Source: Bacillota bacterium | GTDB taxonomy: Bacteria; Bacillota; Sulfobacillia; Sulfobacillales; Sulfobacillaceae | DNA: 54,551 bases | NCBI GenBank assembly: GCA_021841025.1 | Contig: JAKBWA010000051.1 | Location: 1-54,551, forward strand | Direction of reading: 5' to 3' | Shown here: in pieces, positions 2,785 to 49,390 of the stretch | How positions within the stretch are numbered: the first letter of the stretch is position 1 | Layout: every line of letters starts with the position of its first letter | Program-made: the position numbers and the translations under genes | The notes under the pieces: model-generated | Seen by the model: the letters and a program-made list of their open reading frames with translations, nothing else | What the model was told of the DNA's origin: nothing | The model's database searches: none

Positions 2785-3165
2785 TTACGACTTTACAGCC
2801 GTGGACGCGCCGATTTCGGCTAAAACCATTGCGACAACCATAATGATGAGATGGGCAATGCCCGAAGCACTACTGGTTGTTGAGAAGAATAGCCCCACAA
2901 CCCCGCCGATAATCATGAGTATGGCTGCAGCCCACAACGATCCAATGCCTTTCGACTTATATCGGCCTAAAGAAATCGCCAGAAACCATATAACAACGGC
3001 TACAATGAGGCCGGCCGCAATGTGAACGTCGAGGGTCACGACTGTGAAATGAAAAATGTGAAGCATATTGCCTAGCCCTAGCAAAAGAGCTATGAGAAAA
3101 GCCACACGCATAATCATGATGTTGAATTTTACTCCGGCCGCTTTTGTGGAAGGTCTGTCCGCCAT
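2785..3165 (-). CDS. small four-helix membrane protein of unknown function
   Basis: A 126-residue protein with about four hydrophobic helices (near residues 18-36, 43-65, 76-94 and 101-121) and a short cytoplasmic-looking N-terminus. AAGGAG lies 7 bases before the ATG. It lies 27 bases after menA in the same direction, so it is probably the last gene of the men operon. Charged residues are few apart from an RYKSKG loop between helices 2 and 3. I cannot assign a family. A role at the membrane alongside MenA or the quinone pool is a guess from position only. Confidence 0.65.
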   Translation of the reverse strand: MADRPSTKAAGVKFNIMIMRVAFLIALLLGLGNMLHIFHFTVVTLDVHIAAGLIVAVVIWFLAISLGRYKSKGIGSLWAAAILMIIGGVVGLFFSTTSSASGIAHLIIMVVAMVLAEIGASTAVKS

Positions 3166-3192
3166 TGTGTACTCCTTTATCAGGGGATTTAT

Positions 3193-4059
3193 TCACAACA
3201 ATAGTCCAATTGTCAGTAAAATGCCAACCAGAACATGAATGCGGCCTGCTATAGGTACCGCTTTAGGCAGCATTTCTGTTTGGCGCAATGAAGCTAGGCT
3301 TTTGACTGCTATGGGTAGAGCAAGCCAGATCAACAGCGCTGTTGTAGGCAGCATTCCCAAAAGTGCCATTGCGCTTACCCAAAGGAAGACGACACCGACC
3401 AGAACATTCAAGGCGATAAAGCCTCTGTGTCTTCCTAGGACTATGGGCAATGTACGTCGGCCATGTTTGAGGTCTTTGGTATAATCTCGCAAGTTGTTGG
3501 CCAGCAAAATGGTGGCCACCGAGAGGCCAACAGGAATCGAAAGCCAGAATCCATTGGCCGTTATCACGTCAGCGGCTGCGAATTGCGTAGACAGAACCTC
3601 AATGGGACCCATAATAATGGCAACCAAAAATTCTCCAAAAGGTGTAGAGGACACAGGATGAGATGTGCCGGTGTAAATGAATCCGGCCATTATGCCTAAT
3701 AAACCCATGGCTAATAGCAGTGGCCCTCGAAAGGCCACCAGAATTAGTCCCAACACCAGGGCCAAACCGTAAATCGCAAGCGCCCACACCCACACGACTC
3801 TCGCTGGGACGGCACCGGAGACGATAATGCCGCCGATGCCTAATGATTGTTCGTCATCGAGACCACGCGTGTAGTCAAAATACTCATTGAGCATATTGGC
3901 ACCAATTTGCATTAAAAAGGCAATGAGCAAGATATCAACCCATGCCCACAACGAGAAATGTCCCGAGATGATGGCCAAGGCACCTCCTATGAACAGCGGT
4001 ACCACTGTAGCCATTAGGGTCGGGGGACGGCTGACTTTAAAAAAACTTGTCCATGTCAT
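3193..4059 (-). CDS. menA: 1,4-dihydroxy-2-naphthoate polyprenyltransferase (MenA)
   Basis: Membrane prenyltransferase of the UbiA family that attaches the polyprenyl chain to 1,4-dihydroxy-2-naphthoate, giving demethylmenaquinone. Both Asp-rich Mg-diphosphate sites are visible: N58-EYF-D62 with D68/D69, and NNLRDYTKD at about 188-196. Eight or nine hydrophobic helices cover the 288 residues, the usual family length. GAGG precedes the ATG. It is sixth in a men operon, 36 bases after menE, and this context separates it from other UbiA-family members. Confidence 0.93.
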   Translation of the reverse strand: MTWTSFFKVSRPPTLMATVVPLFIGGALAIISGHFSLWAWVDILLIAFLMQIGANMLNEYFDYTRGLDDEQSLGIGGIIVSGAVPARVVWVWALAIYGLALVLGLILVAFRGPLLLAMGLLGIMAGFIYTGTSHPVSSTPFGEFLVAIIMGPIEVLSTQFAAADVITANGFWLSIPVGLSVATILLANNLRDYTKDLKHGRRTLPIVLGRHRGFIALNVLVGVVFLWVSAMALLGMLPTTALLIWLALPIAVKSLASLRQTEMLPKAVPIAGRIHVLVGILLTIGLLL

Positions 4060-43984: not shown

Positions 43985-45304
43985 ATGTTAATTCAGGTTG
44001 TGGGCATCAACTATAAAACAGCATCCCTGAAGATTAGAACACAGGTGGGATTGACGCCGGATTTAATCGCTAAGGCCTATCAGCGGGTGAACGAACTCAA
44101 GGGCCAACAGGGCATCGTAATATTGTCTACGTGCAACCGCACCGAAATATATGTAGCGGGCAATGTGGGGTACTCAGCCATCGTTAATTGGTGGGGAGGT
44201 ATCACGGGTGTGGGACGTAGAGAATTTTCCGATGGGCTTTTTTGGTACTCAGATACCAAAGCTTTTGAACATTTATTCCGGGTGGCTTCGGGATTAGACT
44301 CGATGATTTTGGGAGAAACCCAAATTTTAGGCCAAGTCAAGGATGCTTATGAGTTATCGCAAAAATGGGGTGCTACCGGCGCGCTCCATCGGTTGTTTCT
44401 AGCTGCTTTAAGGGCTGGCAAGCGTGCGCATGCTGAGACGGATATCAGTCACAACGCGTTATCGATGGGATACGCGGTTGTGGAACTAAGTCGCAAGGTA
44501 TTTGGCGATTTGTCACACACCCATGCTGTGATAATAGGTGCTGGAGAAATGGGAACGTTGGTGGCACGGCATCTATCGTCTGCTCAGGTAGGGCATGTGA
44601 CTATTGTCAATCGGACCAGGTCTCGCGGAGAACTTTTGGCTGAGGAGATTCATGGGTCTTATGTTCCCTTGGATCAATTGTCCCAAGTGCTGCCGGCAGC
44701 TAATCTCGTTGTGGCGGCTACACACGCACCTCATTTACTCGTGACGAAACAAGTGATGAAAGCCGCGATAAAGGGGAAGACAGAGCGTTTGCGCTTTCTC
44801 TTCGATTTATCTGTGCCCAGGAATTTCGATCCCGAAATTGTCCGATTGGGGAGTGGCATTTTCTTGTATGATATTGATGATGTGAAGGATGTTGTGAACG
44901 CCAATTTGCATCAACGACAAAAAGAAGCAGGCAAGGTGGTTAAGATCATCCAAGAAGAAAGCGGAGCATTGCAGAACGATTTGGCGATATCAGAAGTGGG
45001 ACCCGTAATTCGGCAACTGAGGGAAAAAGCCGAGACCATTCGTCAAGCGGAATTGAATAGAGCCTTGATTCGTTTATCCCATTTGTCTGAGGGCGACAAA
45101 CAAATCGTGGCTGAAACTACCCGTTTGATCCTTAACAAATTTCTTAATGATGCAATGATAGGTATGCGTACGTGGGCCAGCGATAAAGACAAAGAAGAAT
45201 ACATTCAAGCCGTGCGAGAACTCTTTCGTTTAAATGAAAAAGTAGCTGAAACTAAGGATCACACCACTACAACTGCTACTGTACAGGTAGTACAATCTGA
45301 GTAG
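43985..45304 (+). CDS. hemA: glutamyl-tRNA reductase
   Basis: First enzyme of the C5 haem pathway: reduces glutamyl-tRNA to glutamate-1-semialdehyde. VVGINYKTASLKIR opens the catalytic domain and the nucleophile is C50 in LSTCNRTEIY. GETQILGQVKDAY follows, then the NADPH domain with VIGAGEMGTLVARHL. A C-terminal helical dimerisation domain extends from about 320. Length 439 is usual. AAGAGGTGG precedes the ATG. It leads the hem operon; hemL is not in the window. Confidence 0.96.
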   Translation: MLIQVVGINYKTASLKIRTQVGLTPDLIAKAYQRVNELKGQQGIVILSTCNRTEIYVAGNVGYSAIVNWWGGITGVGRREFSDGLFWYSDTKAFEHLFRVASGLDSMILGETQILGQVKDAYELSQKWGATGALHRLFLAALRAGKRAHAETDISHNALSMGYAVVELSRKVFGDLSHTHAVIIGAGEMGTLVARHLSSAQVGHVTIVNRTRSRGELLAEEIHGSYVPLDQLSQVLPAANLVVAATHAPHLLVTKQVMKAAIKGKTERLRFLFDLSVPRNFDPEIVRLGSGIFLYDIDDVKDVVNANLHQRQKEAGKVVKIIQEESGALQNDLAISEVGPVIRQLREKAETIRQAELNRALIRLSHLSEGDKQIVAETTRLILNKFLNDAMIGMRTWASDKDKEEYIQAVRELFRLNEKVAETKDHTTTTATVQVVQSE

Positions 45305-45316
45305 TGAACTGAGGCG

Positions 45317-46126
45317 ATGGTGGGAGCAGTACTCATAGCATTAACTTTTCTGGGATATTTTTCAGCTTCCGTTGCGTACGTTGCTGCTTTGTATGAAAAG
45401 CGGTGGCGAAAATGGGGCTTAGTGAGTGCCCTTTTGGGACTCGTCGCCCAAAGTAGCTGGTTGGTTCAAAAGACGGCGCTGCTGGGAAGCTTTCCGGACG
45501 GGACGCTATATGATTGGATAGCGACTTTTACGTGGTTTTCCGTGATTATTTTTATTATCATTCAGCTGGTTCGTCCGCAACTGCCACTAGGCGGTTTTCT
45601 TTTGCCAATCACAACGATGATTTGGTTAGGCAGTCAGGCTCTGTCTCGACGTCTTGTGGTTCCGCCGCATTTTCATGGAGAGTTGTTAAGAATTCACATT
45701 GGCACTGCCGTTTTTGCGTATGTGGCTTTTTTATTGGCTGCCGTCTTTAGTATTATGTATACAGAAAAGGAACGCGAATTAAAAAGGAAACGAGTTCGGC
45801 TGTTTTACTACGAGTTGCCCTCGTTAGAAATCATGGATGCCATGAGCACTCGCTTGATTGTGGCTGGGGTGGTATTTTATGCCATCACATTGGTAAGCGG
45901 GATGGTGCGGGCGAAACAACTGTTTAACGTTTACTGGTCATGGTCAGCTCAAGAAGTGTGGAGCACCCTTGTGTGGCTGGCTTACGTTTGTTATCTTGTT
46001 TTGCGCCTTAGAGGATGGAGGGGGCATAAAGCCGCAATTTATTCAATGTCCGTGTTTTTGCTGGTTATTGTTAATTTGTTCGTGGTCGGAGTATTTTTTC
46101 ATGGCTTTCATTTTTACAACGTGTAA
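45317..46126 (+). CDS. hemX: CcsA/HemX-type cytochrome c assembly membrane protein
   Basis: A 269-residue membrane protein with about eight helices of the cytochrome-c-assembly family. Conserved histidines (PPHFHGELLRIHIGTAVFAY, as LRIHIGTAVFAY) and the Trp-rich segment YWSWSAQEVWSTLVW are present; the latter corresponds to the WWD-like loop but with SAQE replacing the DPKE of haem-handling CcsA. In Bacillus the hemA-adjacent member is HemX, which negatively affects HemA level, and the position between hemA and hemC suggests the same here. It starts 12 bases after hemA. Confidence 0.85.
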   Translation: MVGAVLIALTFLGYFSASVAYVAALYEKRWRKWGLVSALLGLVAQSSWLVQKTALLGSFPDGTLYDWIATFTWFSVIIFIIIQLVRPQLPLGGFLLPITTMIWLGSQALSRRLVVPPHFHGELLRIHIGTAVFAYVAFLLAAVFSIMYTEKERELKRKRVRLFYYELPSLEIMDAMSTRLIVAGVVFYAITLVSGMVRAKQLFNVYWSWSAQEVWSTLVWLAYVCYLVLRLRGWRGHKAAIYSMSVFLLVIVNLFVVGVFFHGFHFYNV

Positions 46127-46146
46127 AACAGGCAGGAGGAGACACA

Positions 46147-47061
46147 ACGGAAAACCGGAAAGGAACACTCAAAATCGGGACCAGATCCAGTGAATTGGCA
46201 CAGATACAAGCCAAGGCGGTCAGTGACCTCTTGCAGTCCCAGGGCATTGACAATGAATTGATTTTATTTGAAACCAAAGGGGATAAAATTCTCGATCGAG
46301 CCTTAGATGCTATTGAAGATAAAGGGCTATTTACCACAGAATTGGAGCGTGCGTTAGTGGACGGTACCATTGATATGGCTGTTCATTCACTAAAAGACTT
46401 ACCCACGACTCTCGCATCCCATTTAATGATTGGCGCATACGTTTTGCCCGAAGATCCCCGGGACGTTCTCATTGCCAAACAGAACATAAAATGGGATACG
46501 TTGCCGCAAAATGCTCGTGTGGCGACATCAAGTCTTAGACGCAAGGCGTTTCTGAAAGCGCTGCGTCCAGACTTGGAAATTATTCCAGTGCGTGGAAATC
46601 TTCAGACCCGTCTCAGAAAGTGGGAGGAAAACGGGTGGGATGCTCTGGTCCTAGCGGCCGCTGGAGTTCACCGATTGGGTTGGCAGCATCTCGTGTCCAG
46701 CTATCTTGATCCGTGGCTCTGTGTGCCAAGCCCCGGGCAGGGAGTTCTTGCTGTCCAAATACGGGATGATCGCGAGTCGCTAGCGACTCTTTTGAAGCAG
46801 CTAAATGACTACCGGGCGACTCAAGCGGCGAAGGCAGAGCGTTTTGTTTTGGCAGAATTAGGCGGAGGATGCCAGATTCCTTTTGGTGCTTATGCTGAGT
46901 GGATTACTCCACAAAAGATTCGTATGCGGGCCAAGGTTGCCGATATAAATGGCCAACGTGTGATTACCCGCGACGTTGAAGGAATGGGAAACGAGTTTGA
47001 GACTTTGAGCCGAAAGTTGGCCGAAGAATTGATTTTGCTTGGGGCACTACAGTTGTTATGA
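46147..47061 (+). CDS. hemC: porphobilinogen deaminase (hydroxymethylbilane synthase), start codon apparently ACG
   Basis: Polymerises four porphobilinogens to hydroxymethylbilane. Family motifs are LKIGTRSSELAQIQA at the start, HSLKDLPT, VATSSLRRKA, VRGNLQTRL and the cofactor cysteine in ELGGGCQIPFGAY. The only canonical start in frame (TTG, 46195) lies after the essential IGTRSSE strand and has no SD. Between the stop at 46072 and 46195 there is no ATG, GTG or TTG. A perfect AGGAGGA (46134-46140) stands 6 bases before ACG at 46147, giving a normal N-terminus (ENRKGTLKIGTRSS after the initiator) and about 304 residues. ATC (46174) and ATT (46093) are less well placed. It starts 20 bases after hemX. 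Confidence 0.9.
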   Translation, partial: TENRKGTLKIGTRSSELAQIQAKAVSDLLQSQGIDNELILFETKGDKILDRALDAIEDKGLFTTELERALVDGTIDMAVHSLKDLPTTLASHLMIGAYVLPEDPRDVLIAKQNIKWDTLPQNARVATSSLRRKAFLKALRPDLEIIPVRGNLQTRLRKWEENGWDALVLAAAGVHRLGWQHLVSSYLDPWLCVPSPGQGVLAVQIRDDRESLATLLKQLNDYRATQAAKAERFVLAELGGGCQIPFGAYAEWITPQKIRMRAKVADINGQRVITRDVEGMGNEFETLSRKLAEELILLGALQLL

Positions 47062-47077: not shown

Positions 47078-48409
47078 ATGCCGTCAAGTATCTATTTTGT
47101 TGGAACTGGGCCGACTATGCGGCCTGAATGGTTAGTCAAAGAAGCATGGGATGTCTTGAAGCAGGCGGATAACGTTCTCGTTGTTGATGATGCTTGGGCA
47201 CCTGATGCGATCTGGCCATGGCATGCGCAAAAAGAATATGTGTCGAGCGAGGAAGTGCTTGATCATTTAACGAATCTATCTTCACAGGAACGAAAAATTG
47301 CAGTCATGCTGGCACAATCTCCATCTCACCATGCTCATATGTCCTTGTGGGTCAATTGGGCAATCAGCCACAATGTGATGGGAACCATCGTTCCGGGACT
47401 GTGGGATATGATGGTGGCTTTAGACACCAATGGGTTCTATGTTATGGAGTCCTTGGAGGTTATCCATGCGACGCGTCCTGTGCGCATTAAGGGAGGGAAG
47501 GGGGACTTTACCCCCACCCATACATGGCACTTATTGCCTTCTGGTCAATGGCACTTAGATGATGGCAACGACAATGCGAAAACCATGCCGACTCTTACCA
47601 TAAAAACACGGGAAATTGTTCCTCATTTTTGGTCGACCCGCTTGCCGCTGTATTCCCGAAAAATTCTCCTGCTGCATGCTGGAAATGCGACGCTGAAGGC
47701 TAGTTCTCGTCTACAAGAGTTGGGAGCAACGGTTTTTATGTCCCCAGTAAATAAAATTGCGGGTCCTTCGGACCCGGCTTATGTTGAACAAACACTCAGT
47801 CACATTGAACGCTACGACTGGGTCATCTTTACAAGTCAGGAAGCCGTGGCACGATTTTTTCAGAACTTAAAGAGGTTAAATTTGGATATTCGCCGGATGC
47901 GCGCTCAAATTGCCGTCGTGGGCCCTCAAACAGCGGCAGTCTTACAAGACTACGGCATATTTCCGGCACTTATGCCGAAACGCCAATTTACCCAGGAAGG
48001 TTTGGCCCAGGCGCTGTCATCGTATACACTTTTGGGGACCAATGTCTTAATGCCTCAAGGAAATCTTAATCGGAGCTATCTTCAAGATTACCTCATGCAA
48101 CAGGGCGCATTAATTACATGTCTTACGCTGTACCAAAATATACCAGTTCCGATATCTCCAAGGATGAGGGATATGGTGGAACGTCATATCGTTGATGCGA
48201 TTTTTTACACCGCTTCATCGTCCGTTGAGCATTTGATTGAGCAGCATCCTCATTTGATACCCAGTTTGCAAAGAATTCCGGCGATTAGTATAGGTCCGTT
48301 GACAAGTCGGACTTTACAACATTATGGCATTCCGGTAATACGACAACCGGAACATTCGTCGCTTGATGCCATGATCGACCGGGTAATTGACTACTTTACC
48401 GAGGAGTGA
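47078..48409 (+). CDS. hemD: uroporphyrinogen-III synthase (HemD) fused to a degenerate methyltransferase-like N-domain
   Basis: Two-part protein of 443 residues. The C-terminal part (about 190-440) is HemD-like: ILLLHAGNA, WVIFTSQEAVARFF, IAVVGPQTAAVL, FYTASSSVEHLI and ISIGPLTSRTL are the expected strands. The N-terminal part begins SIYFVGTGPTMRPEWLVKEA and continues to LVVDDAW, resembling the opening of tetrapyrrole methylases such as CobA, but it lacks their GGDP glycine-rich site and is too short to be complete. It cyclises hydroxymethylbilane to uroporphyrinogen III. The N-domain is probably structural or vestigial. The frame opens at 47039; the ATG at 47078 with GAGGGTGAGGGTGG is preferred. 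Confidence 0.82.
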   Translation: MPSSIYFVGTGPTMRPEWLVKEAWDVLKQADNVLVVDDAWAPDAIWPWHAQKEYVSSEEVLDHLTNLSSQERKIAVMLAQSPSHHAHMSLWVNWAISHNVMGTIVPGLWDMMVALDTNGFYVMESLEVIHATRPVRIKGGKGDFTPTHTWHLLPSGQWHLDDGNDNAKTMPTLTIKTREIVPHFWSTRLPLYSRKILLLHAGNATLKASSRLQELGATVFMSPVNKIAGPSDPAYVEQTLSHIERYDWVIFTSQEAVARFFQNLKRLNLDIRRMRAQIAVVGPQTAAVLQDYGIFPALMPKRQFTQEGLAQALSSYTLLGTNVLMPQGNLNRSYLQDYLMQQGALITCLTLYQNIPVPISPRMRDMVERHIVDAIFYTASSSVEHLIEQHPHLIPSLQRIPAISIGPLTSRTLQHYGIPVIRQPEHSSLDAMIDRVIDYFTEE

Positions 48410-48415
48410 AAACCC

Positions 48416-49390
48416 ATGTTTCCTATTGAACGTCCCCGTCGTTTGCGACAAAATGAAACCTTGCGTGCTCTGGTTCGCGAGACTCACATTTCTGTGGATC
48501 AACTCATTTATCCCGTATTTGTCCGCTCAGGTGAAGGAGTCAAAGAGCCGATCAGTTCTATGCCAGGAATCTTCCAATGGTCTGTTGACACCTTAACTGA
48601 CCATTTAACAAAGGTGTTTTCTCTGGGGGTACGCAGTTTTCTTTTTTTTGGCATCCCCTCTCACAAGGATTCCCAGGGCTCCCATGCCTATAACCCCGAC
48701 GGCATCGTCCAAATTGCCTTGCAATCCGTGAAAGATCGATTGCCTCAAGCTGTCCTTATTGCCGACTTATGCTTGTGCGAATATACTGACCACGGCCATT
48801 GTGGAATCTTGCGCGGCAACACTGTCGACAACGACTTGACTATTGATGTGTTGGCGCGAACAGCCGTAGTGCAAGCTAGGGCAGGTGCAACCATTGTTGC
48901 GCCATCGGATATGATGGACGGCCGTGTCAAACGGATTCGGCAAGCCTTAGATCAGTCCGGATTTGACGAGGTACCTATCATGTCTTACGCGGCAAAATAC
49001 GCTTCGGGGTTTTATGGGCCGTTTCGAGATGCTGCGGAAAACACGCCTGCCTTTGGCGACCGAAGAGCCTATCAAATGGATCCCGCTAATCGCAACGAAG
49101 CTATGAAGGAAGTTTTTCTCGACCTTGAAGAGGGTAGTGATATGCTAATCGTAAAACCGGCAATGCCATATTTGGACATATTGTCGGATGTGAAAAAATC
49201 GGTGCGCGTTCCCGTTGCCGCGTACCAAGTTTCTGGCGAATATTCTATGATTAAGGCAGCCGGACTACAAGGATGGATCGAAGAAGAGCGAGTGATAGAG
49301 GAATCATTAACGAGTATTAAGCGTGCAGGGGCCGACATGATAATTACGTACTTTGCCCCCGAATATGCAAGATGGCACTCGGAGCAATAG
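48416..49390 (+). CDS. hemB: porphobilinogen synthase (delta-aminolevulinate dehydratase)
   Basis: Condenses two aminolevulinates to porphobilinogen. The three-cysteine zinc site is visible as C119, C121 and C129 in LCLCEYTDHGHCG. The two Schiff-base lysines are K194 (SYAAKYASGFYGPFRD) and K247 (LIVKPAMPYLD). YQVSGEYSM is conserved. Length 324 is usual. GAGGAG lies before the ATG, 6 bases after hemD. Last gene of the hem cluster; hemE, hemH/Y and hemL are not seen. Confidence 0.96.
   Translation: MFPIERPRRLRQNETLRALVRETHISVDQLIYPVFVRSGEGVKEPISSMPGIFQWSVDTLTDHLTKVFSLGVRSFLFFGIPSHKDSQGSHAYNPDGIVQIALQSVKDRLPQAVLIADLCLCEYTDHGHCGILRGNTVDNDLTIDVLARTAVVQARAGATIVAPSDMMDGRVKRIRQALDQSGFDEVPIMSYAAKYASGFYGPFRDAAENTPAFGDRRAYQMDPANRNEAMKEVFLDLEEGSDMLIVKPAMPYLDILSDVKKSVRVPVAAYQVSGEYSMIKAAGLQGWIEEERVIEESLTSIKRAGADMIITYFAPEYARWHSEQ

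Follow-up and report, generated by a model that had tools for sequence, protein, structure and literature searches.

A probable ACG start codon in hemC and conserved putative ACG starts in other genes of Sulfobacillus

Among the closest described counterparts of the start analysed here is that of infC, the classical case of IF3 autoregulation, in which an AUU, AUC or AUA (AUH) codon stands behind a strong Shine-Dalgarno (SD) sequence and is conserved across species. ACG is regarded in textbooks as a near-useless start and is ignored by gene finders. Conserved non-canonical starts with extended SD motifs and lowered expression have been described for cvfC1 (AUU) and ccpN (AUA) of Staphylococcus aureus; these cases are AUH only, and ACG appears nowhere in the text of that report (PMC13009471). 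As cited there, E. coli pcnB is a single chromosomal gene held low by a poor start codon, AUU. Among ~69,000 reconstructed ancestral prokaryotic starts, a handful switched beyond AUG/GUG/UUG, to CUG or AUU, with ACG unmentioned (PMC5622118). Against ACG stands a report that IF3 admits no pairing other than Watson-Crick at the first two positions of the codon (PMC10158994), and ACG gave 0.1–1.5% of the ATG output in one E. coli reporter, a value that is strongly context dependent, ACG versions of other genes having done better (PMC6925171). The IF3 rule and the low reporter output together imply that ACG initiation should be inefficient. Our search of the open-access literature returned ACG starts from plastids, plant mitochondria and viruses and from no bacterial genus, an earlier single-gene report in the subscription literature being possible, and nothing on the start codons of Sulfobacillus.

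Sulfobacillus species are acid-loving, bioleaching bacteria. The window, the whole 54,551-nt stretch analysed here, comes from a genome (G000) that falls within this genus and carries a hem operon on the forward strand. hemA (glutamyl-tRNA reductase; 43985–45304; PF05201, PF01488, PF00745) is followed by hemX (CcsA-like, Cytochrom_C_asm; 45317–46126; PF01578), hemC (46147–47061, 304 codons from ACG plus the stop), a fused cobA-like/hemD gene with an ATG start (47078–48409) and hemB (porphobilinogen synthase; 48416–49390; NF006762, 500 bits). The HemD half of the fusion matches uroporphyrinogen-III synthase models over residues 209–456, below their curated cutoffs. Immediately 3' of the operon lies selA (L-seryl-tRNA(Sec) selenium transferase, TIGR00474; 49673–51121). 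HemC is identified as hydroxymethylbilane synthase by the equivalog model TIGR00212 (313.6 bits against a cutoff of 164), by PF01379 and PF03900, and by the PBGD structures of B. megaterium and E. coli; its gene is present in a single copy in the genome.

An earlier note on this DNA had found no canonical start ahead of the conserved HemC N-terminus and had favored ACG, and direct reading of the frame bears out each of its observations. The frame is closed upstream by TAA (46072–46074), and the first canonical codon after it is the TTG at 46195–46197; from the hemX stop (46124–46126) to 46189, no ATG, GTG or TTG occurs in any frame. The SD sequence AGGAGGA (46134–46140) precedes the ACG (46147–46149) at a normal distance, 7 nt separating AGGAGG from the codon, and the hemX stop lies 20 nt before the ACG. 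HemC started at this ACG has an N-terminus of about the same length as the E. coli and B. megaterium enzymes: its TIGR00212 alignment begins at residue 8, and its residue 7 pairs with E. coli residue 5 in the structure alignment. RNA folding around the start revealed nothing unusual (z 0.55 and -0.45).

The TTG at 46195 is the only canonical codon nearby and is probably the one picked by automatic annotation. A shortened HemC beginning there is nevertheless highly improbable. The TTG lies 3' of the conserved LKIGTRSSE stretch, has no SD (its best match is GTGA) and would cost nine positions of the profile. The earlier note had argued that this start would delete a substrate/cofactor-binding part of the enzyme. 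Two residues of the lost LKIGTRSSE, an Arg and a Ser, are the counterparts of E. coli Arg11 and Ser13 in the alignment. The stretch is under purifying selection: between species, the LKIGTRSS codons change almost only synonymously, and the codons 5' of the TTG are thus shown to be translated.

We compared the hemX-hemC junction, as the earlier note had proposed, among relatives within the family, where 32 genomes have a hemC match. Among the N-termini inspected, the conserved start is ATG, GTG or TTG in all but the window and the sister species G015, whose HemC is 80% identical. In G017, G018, G016 and S. thermotolerans Kr1 (G019), hemC has a GTG or ATG nine bases 5' of the codon that opens the (I/V)GTR motif. 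G015 likewise lacks a canonical start, and its leader, GGAGGA GTAGCC ACG GAA, keeps the elements of that in the window, GGAGGA GACACA ACG GAA. The same elements recur in S. benefaciens AMDSBA1 (G013), with GGAGGA AATCGCG ACG GAA; this genome also has an in-frame GTG, preceded by AGAAGGA, which could be an alternative hemC start there. In a tree of hemA, hemX, hemC, cobA-hemD and hemB, the window and G015 are sisters with 99–100% bootstrap support and G013 is next; the canonical hemC start, GTG or ATG in the outgroups, was thus lost once, in the ancestor of the two.

A base-call error or a very recent ATG-to-ACG mutation, both raised by the earlier note, would need to change only one base, and the assembly is a 118-contig draft. 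These explanations have a negligible probability, as the independent G015 genome shows the same SD and ACG and also lacks a canonical start. Fourfold-degenerate sites of hemC are only ~0.3–0.45 identical among the window, G015 and G013, and ~45% identical between the window and G015; thus, the ACG common to the latter two is old. For hemC alone the codon-identity control is weak, since the three genomes have the same codon in 16/73 of the conserved fourfold columns and in 3/10 of the Thr columns. The main support for the hemC start comes from the lack of canonical starts and the conservation of the SD.

In the window, G015 and G013, the hemC frame extends without a stop into the hemX gene, as it would if ribosomes finishing hemX shifted into the -1 frame and produced a HemX-HemC fusion for which no start codon is necessary. 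We consider this scarcely credible: inspection of the window sequence revealed no correctly framed X_XXY_YYZ site, G017 and G018 carry in-frame stops between the two genes, and a frameshift would make the hemC SD pointless. Among ~42 window genes compared with relatives, only hemC was found to lack a canonical start at a conserved N-terminus. thiE and the genes for a prephenate dehydratase and a histidine kinase were also suspected and resolved to canonical starts. A lax test for conserved upstream sequence flagged many window genes through overlapping reading frames, and the large ones have canonical starts.

The earlier note took initiation at ACG to be very rare among bacteria, which is not true of Sulfobacillus. 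In eight of eight genomes of the genus, an ACG occupies the SD-spaced start position of at least three further genes, namely purR, ispE and a gene for a small membrane protein; these genomes include the complete chromosome of S. thermotolerans Kr1, a further argument against sequencing error or recent mutation in hemC. All three genes lie on contig C8 of the source genome. purR (PuR_N, PF09182; L101:4903–5763) begins, for example, with AAAGGAGGTTGACGCC ACG GAT ATT, and the codon preceding the ACG is variable (GCC, ATC, ACC, ACA, ACG). ispE (GHMP kinase with the AYAKxNLG motif; L101, about 2974–3906) reads CAGGAGGGATTTTA ACG CAA in G017, again after a variable codon (AGT, GGT, GAT, GGA, TTA, TTC, ATC, GCC). 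In the ispE genes of the window genome and G015, a TTG follows seven codons after the ACG. The membrane protein (~138 residues; L102:9785–10198) had no match in Pfam; its ACG follows CTC, ATT, GTC, ATA, AAA, AAC, GAT or CAT, and in other genera of the family the start of this gene, like that of hemC, is ATG, GTG or TTG. Judged by sequence comparison, the conserved ACG starts are natural and inherited in Sulfobacillus, not a product of sequencing error.

Two surveys bear on how common such starts are. An intrinsic scan of 938 kb (~28% of the source genome) sought genes whose SD has no canonical start close to it; ruvC, tyrS, the hydroxypyruvate isomerase gene and others that it returned had canonical starts on inspection. 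A pair survey covered 250 homologous genes of the source genome and G017 (0.86 Mb of the latter), and its candidates were then looked up across the genus. Both genomes had a canonical start and an SD in 154 of the 250 genes. In the remainder, ACG/ACG columns with an SD in both genomes were those of purR, the membrane protein gene and hslO, in which the ACG is the second codon. The same Thr codon ACA, ACC or ACT in both genomes at SD spacing was found in none of these remaining genes, and ACG makes up ~29% of the Thr codons of the source genome (1115/3903). Synonymous sites across the eight Sulfobacillus genomes are nearly randomised: the same codon in all eight occurs in 1/64 fully conserved Ala/Thr/Pro/Gly/Val columns of purR, 1/32 of ispE and 0/27 of the membrane protein gene. 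Non-canonical starts are apparent in ~9 of ~250 compared genes (3–4%), a rough figure from a survey that was partial and partly candidate-driven.

The genus also uses AUU, AUC and AUA starts, in infC, cyanophycinase (cphB), csaA and a DUF202 gene. infC, which served as a positive control and was recovered by the same surveys, starts with ATT in the source genome (L043, about 1250, contig C102; SD ~10 nt away) and with ATT, ATC or ATA in relatives. The cyanophycinase gene (L077:18969–19829, contig C8) has no canonical start and reads AGGAGGCCATAGCC ATA GGA CCG; in five species the codon at this one position is ATA, ATA, ATC, ATT and ATT, and the ATG present in G017 and G018 is just 2 nt from AGGAGG, with an ATC at 8 nt. 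csaA (L121:9908–10255) has ATC in five genomes, and the DUF202 gene (L111:5365–5715) has an ATT or ATC conserved with relatives. hslO (Hsp33; L080:4675–5544, minus strand, contig C15) has ATT or ATC where other genomes carry ATG or GTG, and this start slot is followed by ACG GAY TAT in 7/7 genomes. The ACG of hslO could itself be a start; as the codon before it in relatives is ATG, GTG, ATC or ATT, we did not count hslO among the ACG starts but as AUH/ambiguous.

Given these AUH starts, hemC might begin, akin to infC and csaA, at the in-frame ATC at 46174–46176, which a second SD-like site, GAAAGGA (46158–46164), would serve at an aligned spacing of 7. This reading is improbable. The corresponding SD is missing in G015, the start would remove the Leu-Lys of the first strand, whose codons vary only synonymously among most relatives, and the conserved GGAGGA-ACG would be left without explanation. 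A plastid-like C-to-U editing of the mRNA would turn ACG into AUG, and conserved plastid ACG starts are often edited, just as ACG is conserved in several Sulfobacillus genes. However, the AUH starts of Sulfobacillus are not convertible to AUG by C-to-U changes, and we know of no mRNA editing of this kind in bacteria, which makes this explanation very unlikely.

Thus, we consider it very probable, from comparative sequence evidence, that hemC starts at the ACG at 46147 by SD-driven initiation with the ordinary CAU initiator tRNA, at a low, IF3-sensitive output, and that this is an inherited practice at the level of the genus. The strong AGGAGGA would position the ACG in the P site, possibly with coupling to ribosomes that end hemX 20 nt upstream. 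An ordinary initiator tRNA would read ACG despite the mismatch at the middle base, and fMet would be the first HemC residue. All initiator-like CAT/CGT loops that ARAGORN calls tRNAs have the anticodon CAT, with three G-C pairs, and a CGU-anticodon initiator tRNA was not found among the ARAGORN calls. The full length of IF3 can be aligned with solved IF3 structures, and no lesion is obvious. It is possible but doubtful that the initiation machinery of Sulfobacillus has changed, be it in 16S rRNA or its modification, in IF1/IF2/IF3 or in modification of the initiator tRNA, so as to make ACG a regular alternative start; if this were true, ACG would start one to a few percent of all genes in the genome, most of them mis-annotated today. 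Initiation at the hemC ACG would be weak and IF3-sensitive, and it may limit HemC, as the earlier note had proposed. Our working hypothesis is that weak starts set the dosage of an enzyme or repressor, keeping HemC, IspE and PurR low and linked to IF3.

IF3 is supposed to reject codons such as ACG, whose middle base does not pair with the initiator anticodon. A genus that keeps ACG starts, those of hemC and ispE among them, would be a natural system for testing the limits of start-codon selection. In these bioleaching bacteria, the annotated versions of hemC, purR, ispE and probably more genes would be too short or absent altogether.

Compared with known systems, hemC shares three features of the non-canonical-start class: a canonical codon is missing at its conserved N-terminus, a strong SD is normally spaced (AGGAGG, 7 nt), and the codon is kept among relatives (in three genomes for hemC and in 8/8 for purR, ispE and the membrane protein gene). 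In plastid genes, ACG likewise stands in the genome at the conserved start position, but there mRNA editing commonly converts it to AUG (ACG-to-AUG editing is mentioned in PMC9845219), which is very unlikely in Sulfobacillus. Like purR in Sulfobacillus, ccpN of S. aureus encodes a transcriptional repressor (PMC13009471). The infC start, ATT in this genome, is likewise non-canonical behind a strong SD, but in AUH starts only the third base fails to pair with the initiator anticodon, whereas ACG mismatches CAU at the second. The middle-base mismatch makes hemC a variant, not a standard member, of the infC/pcnB/ccpN type. The infC type is known in many bacteria, whereas the ACG starts of hemC, purR and ispE have been found only in Sulfobacillus, and ACG is best read as adding one more codon to the attenuated non-AUG starts already known.
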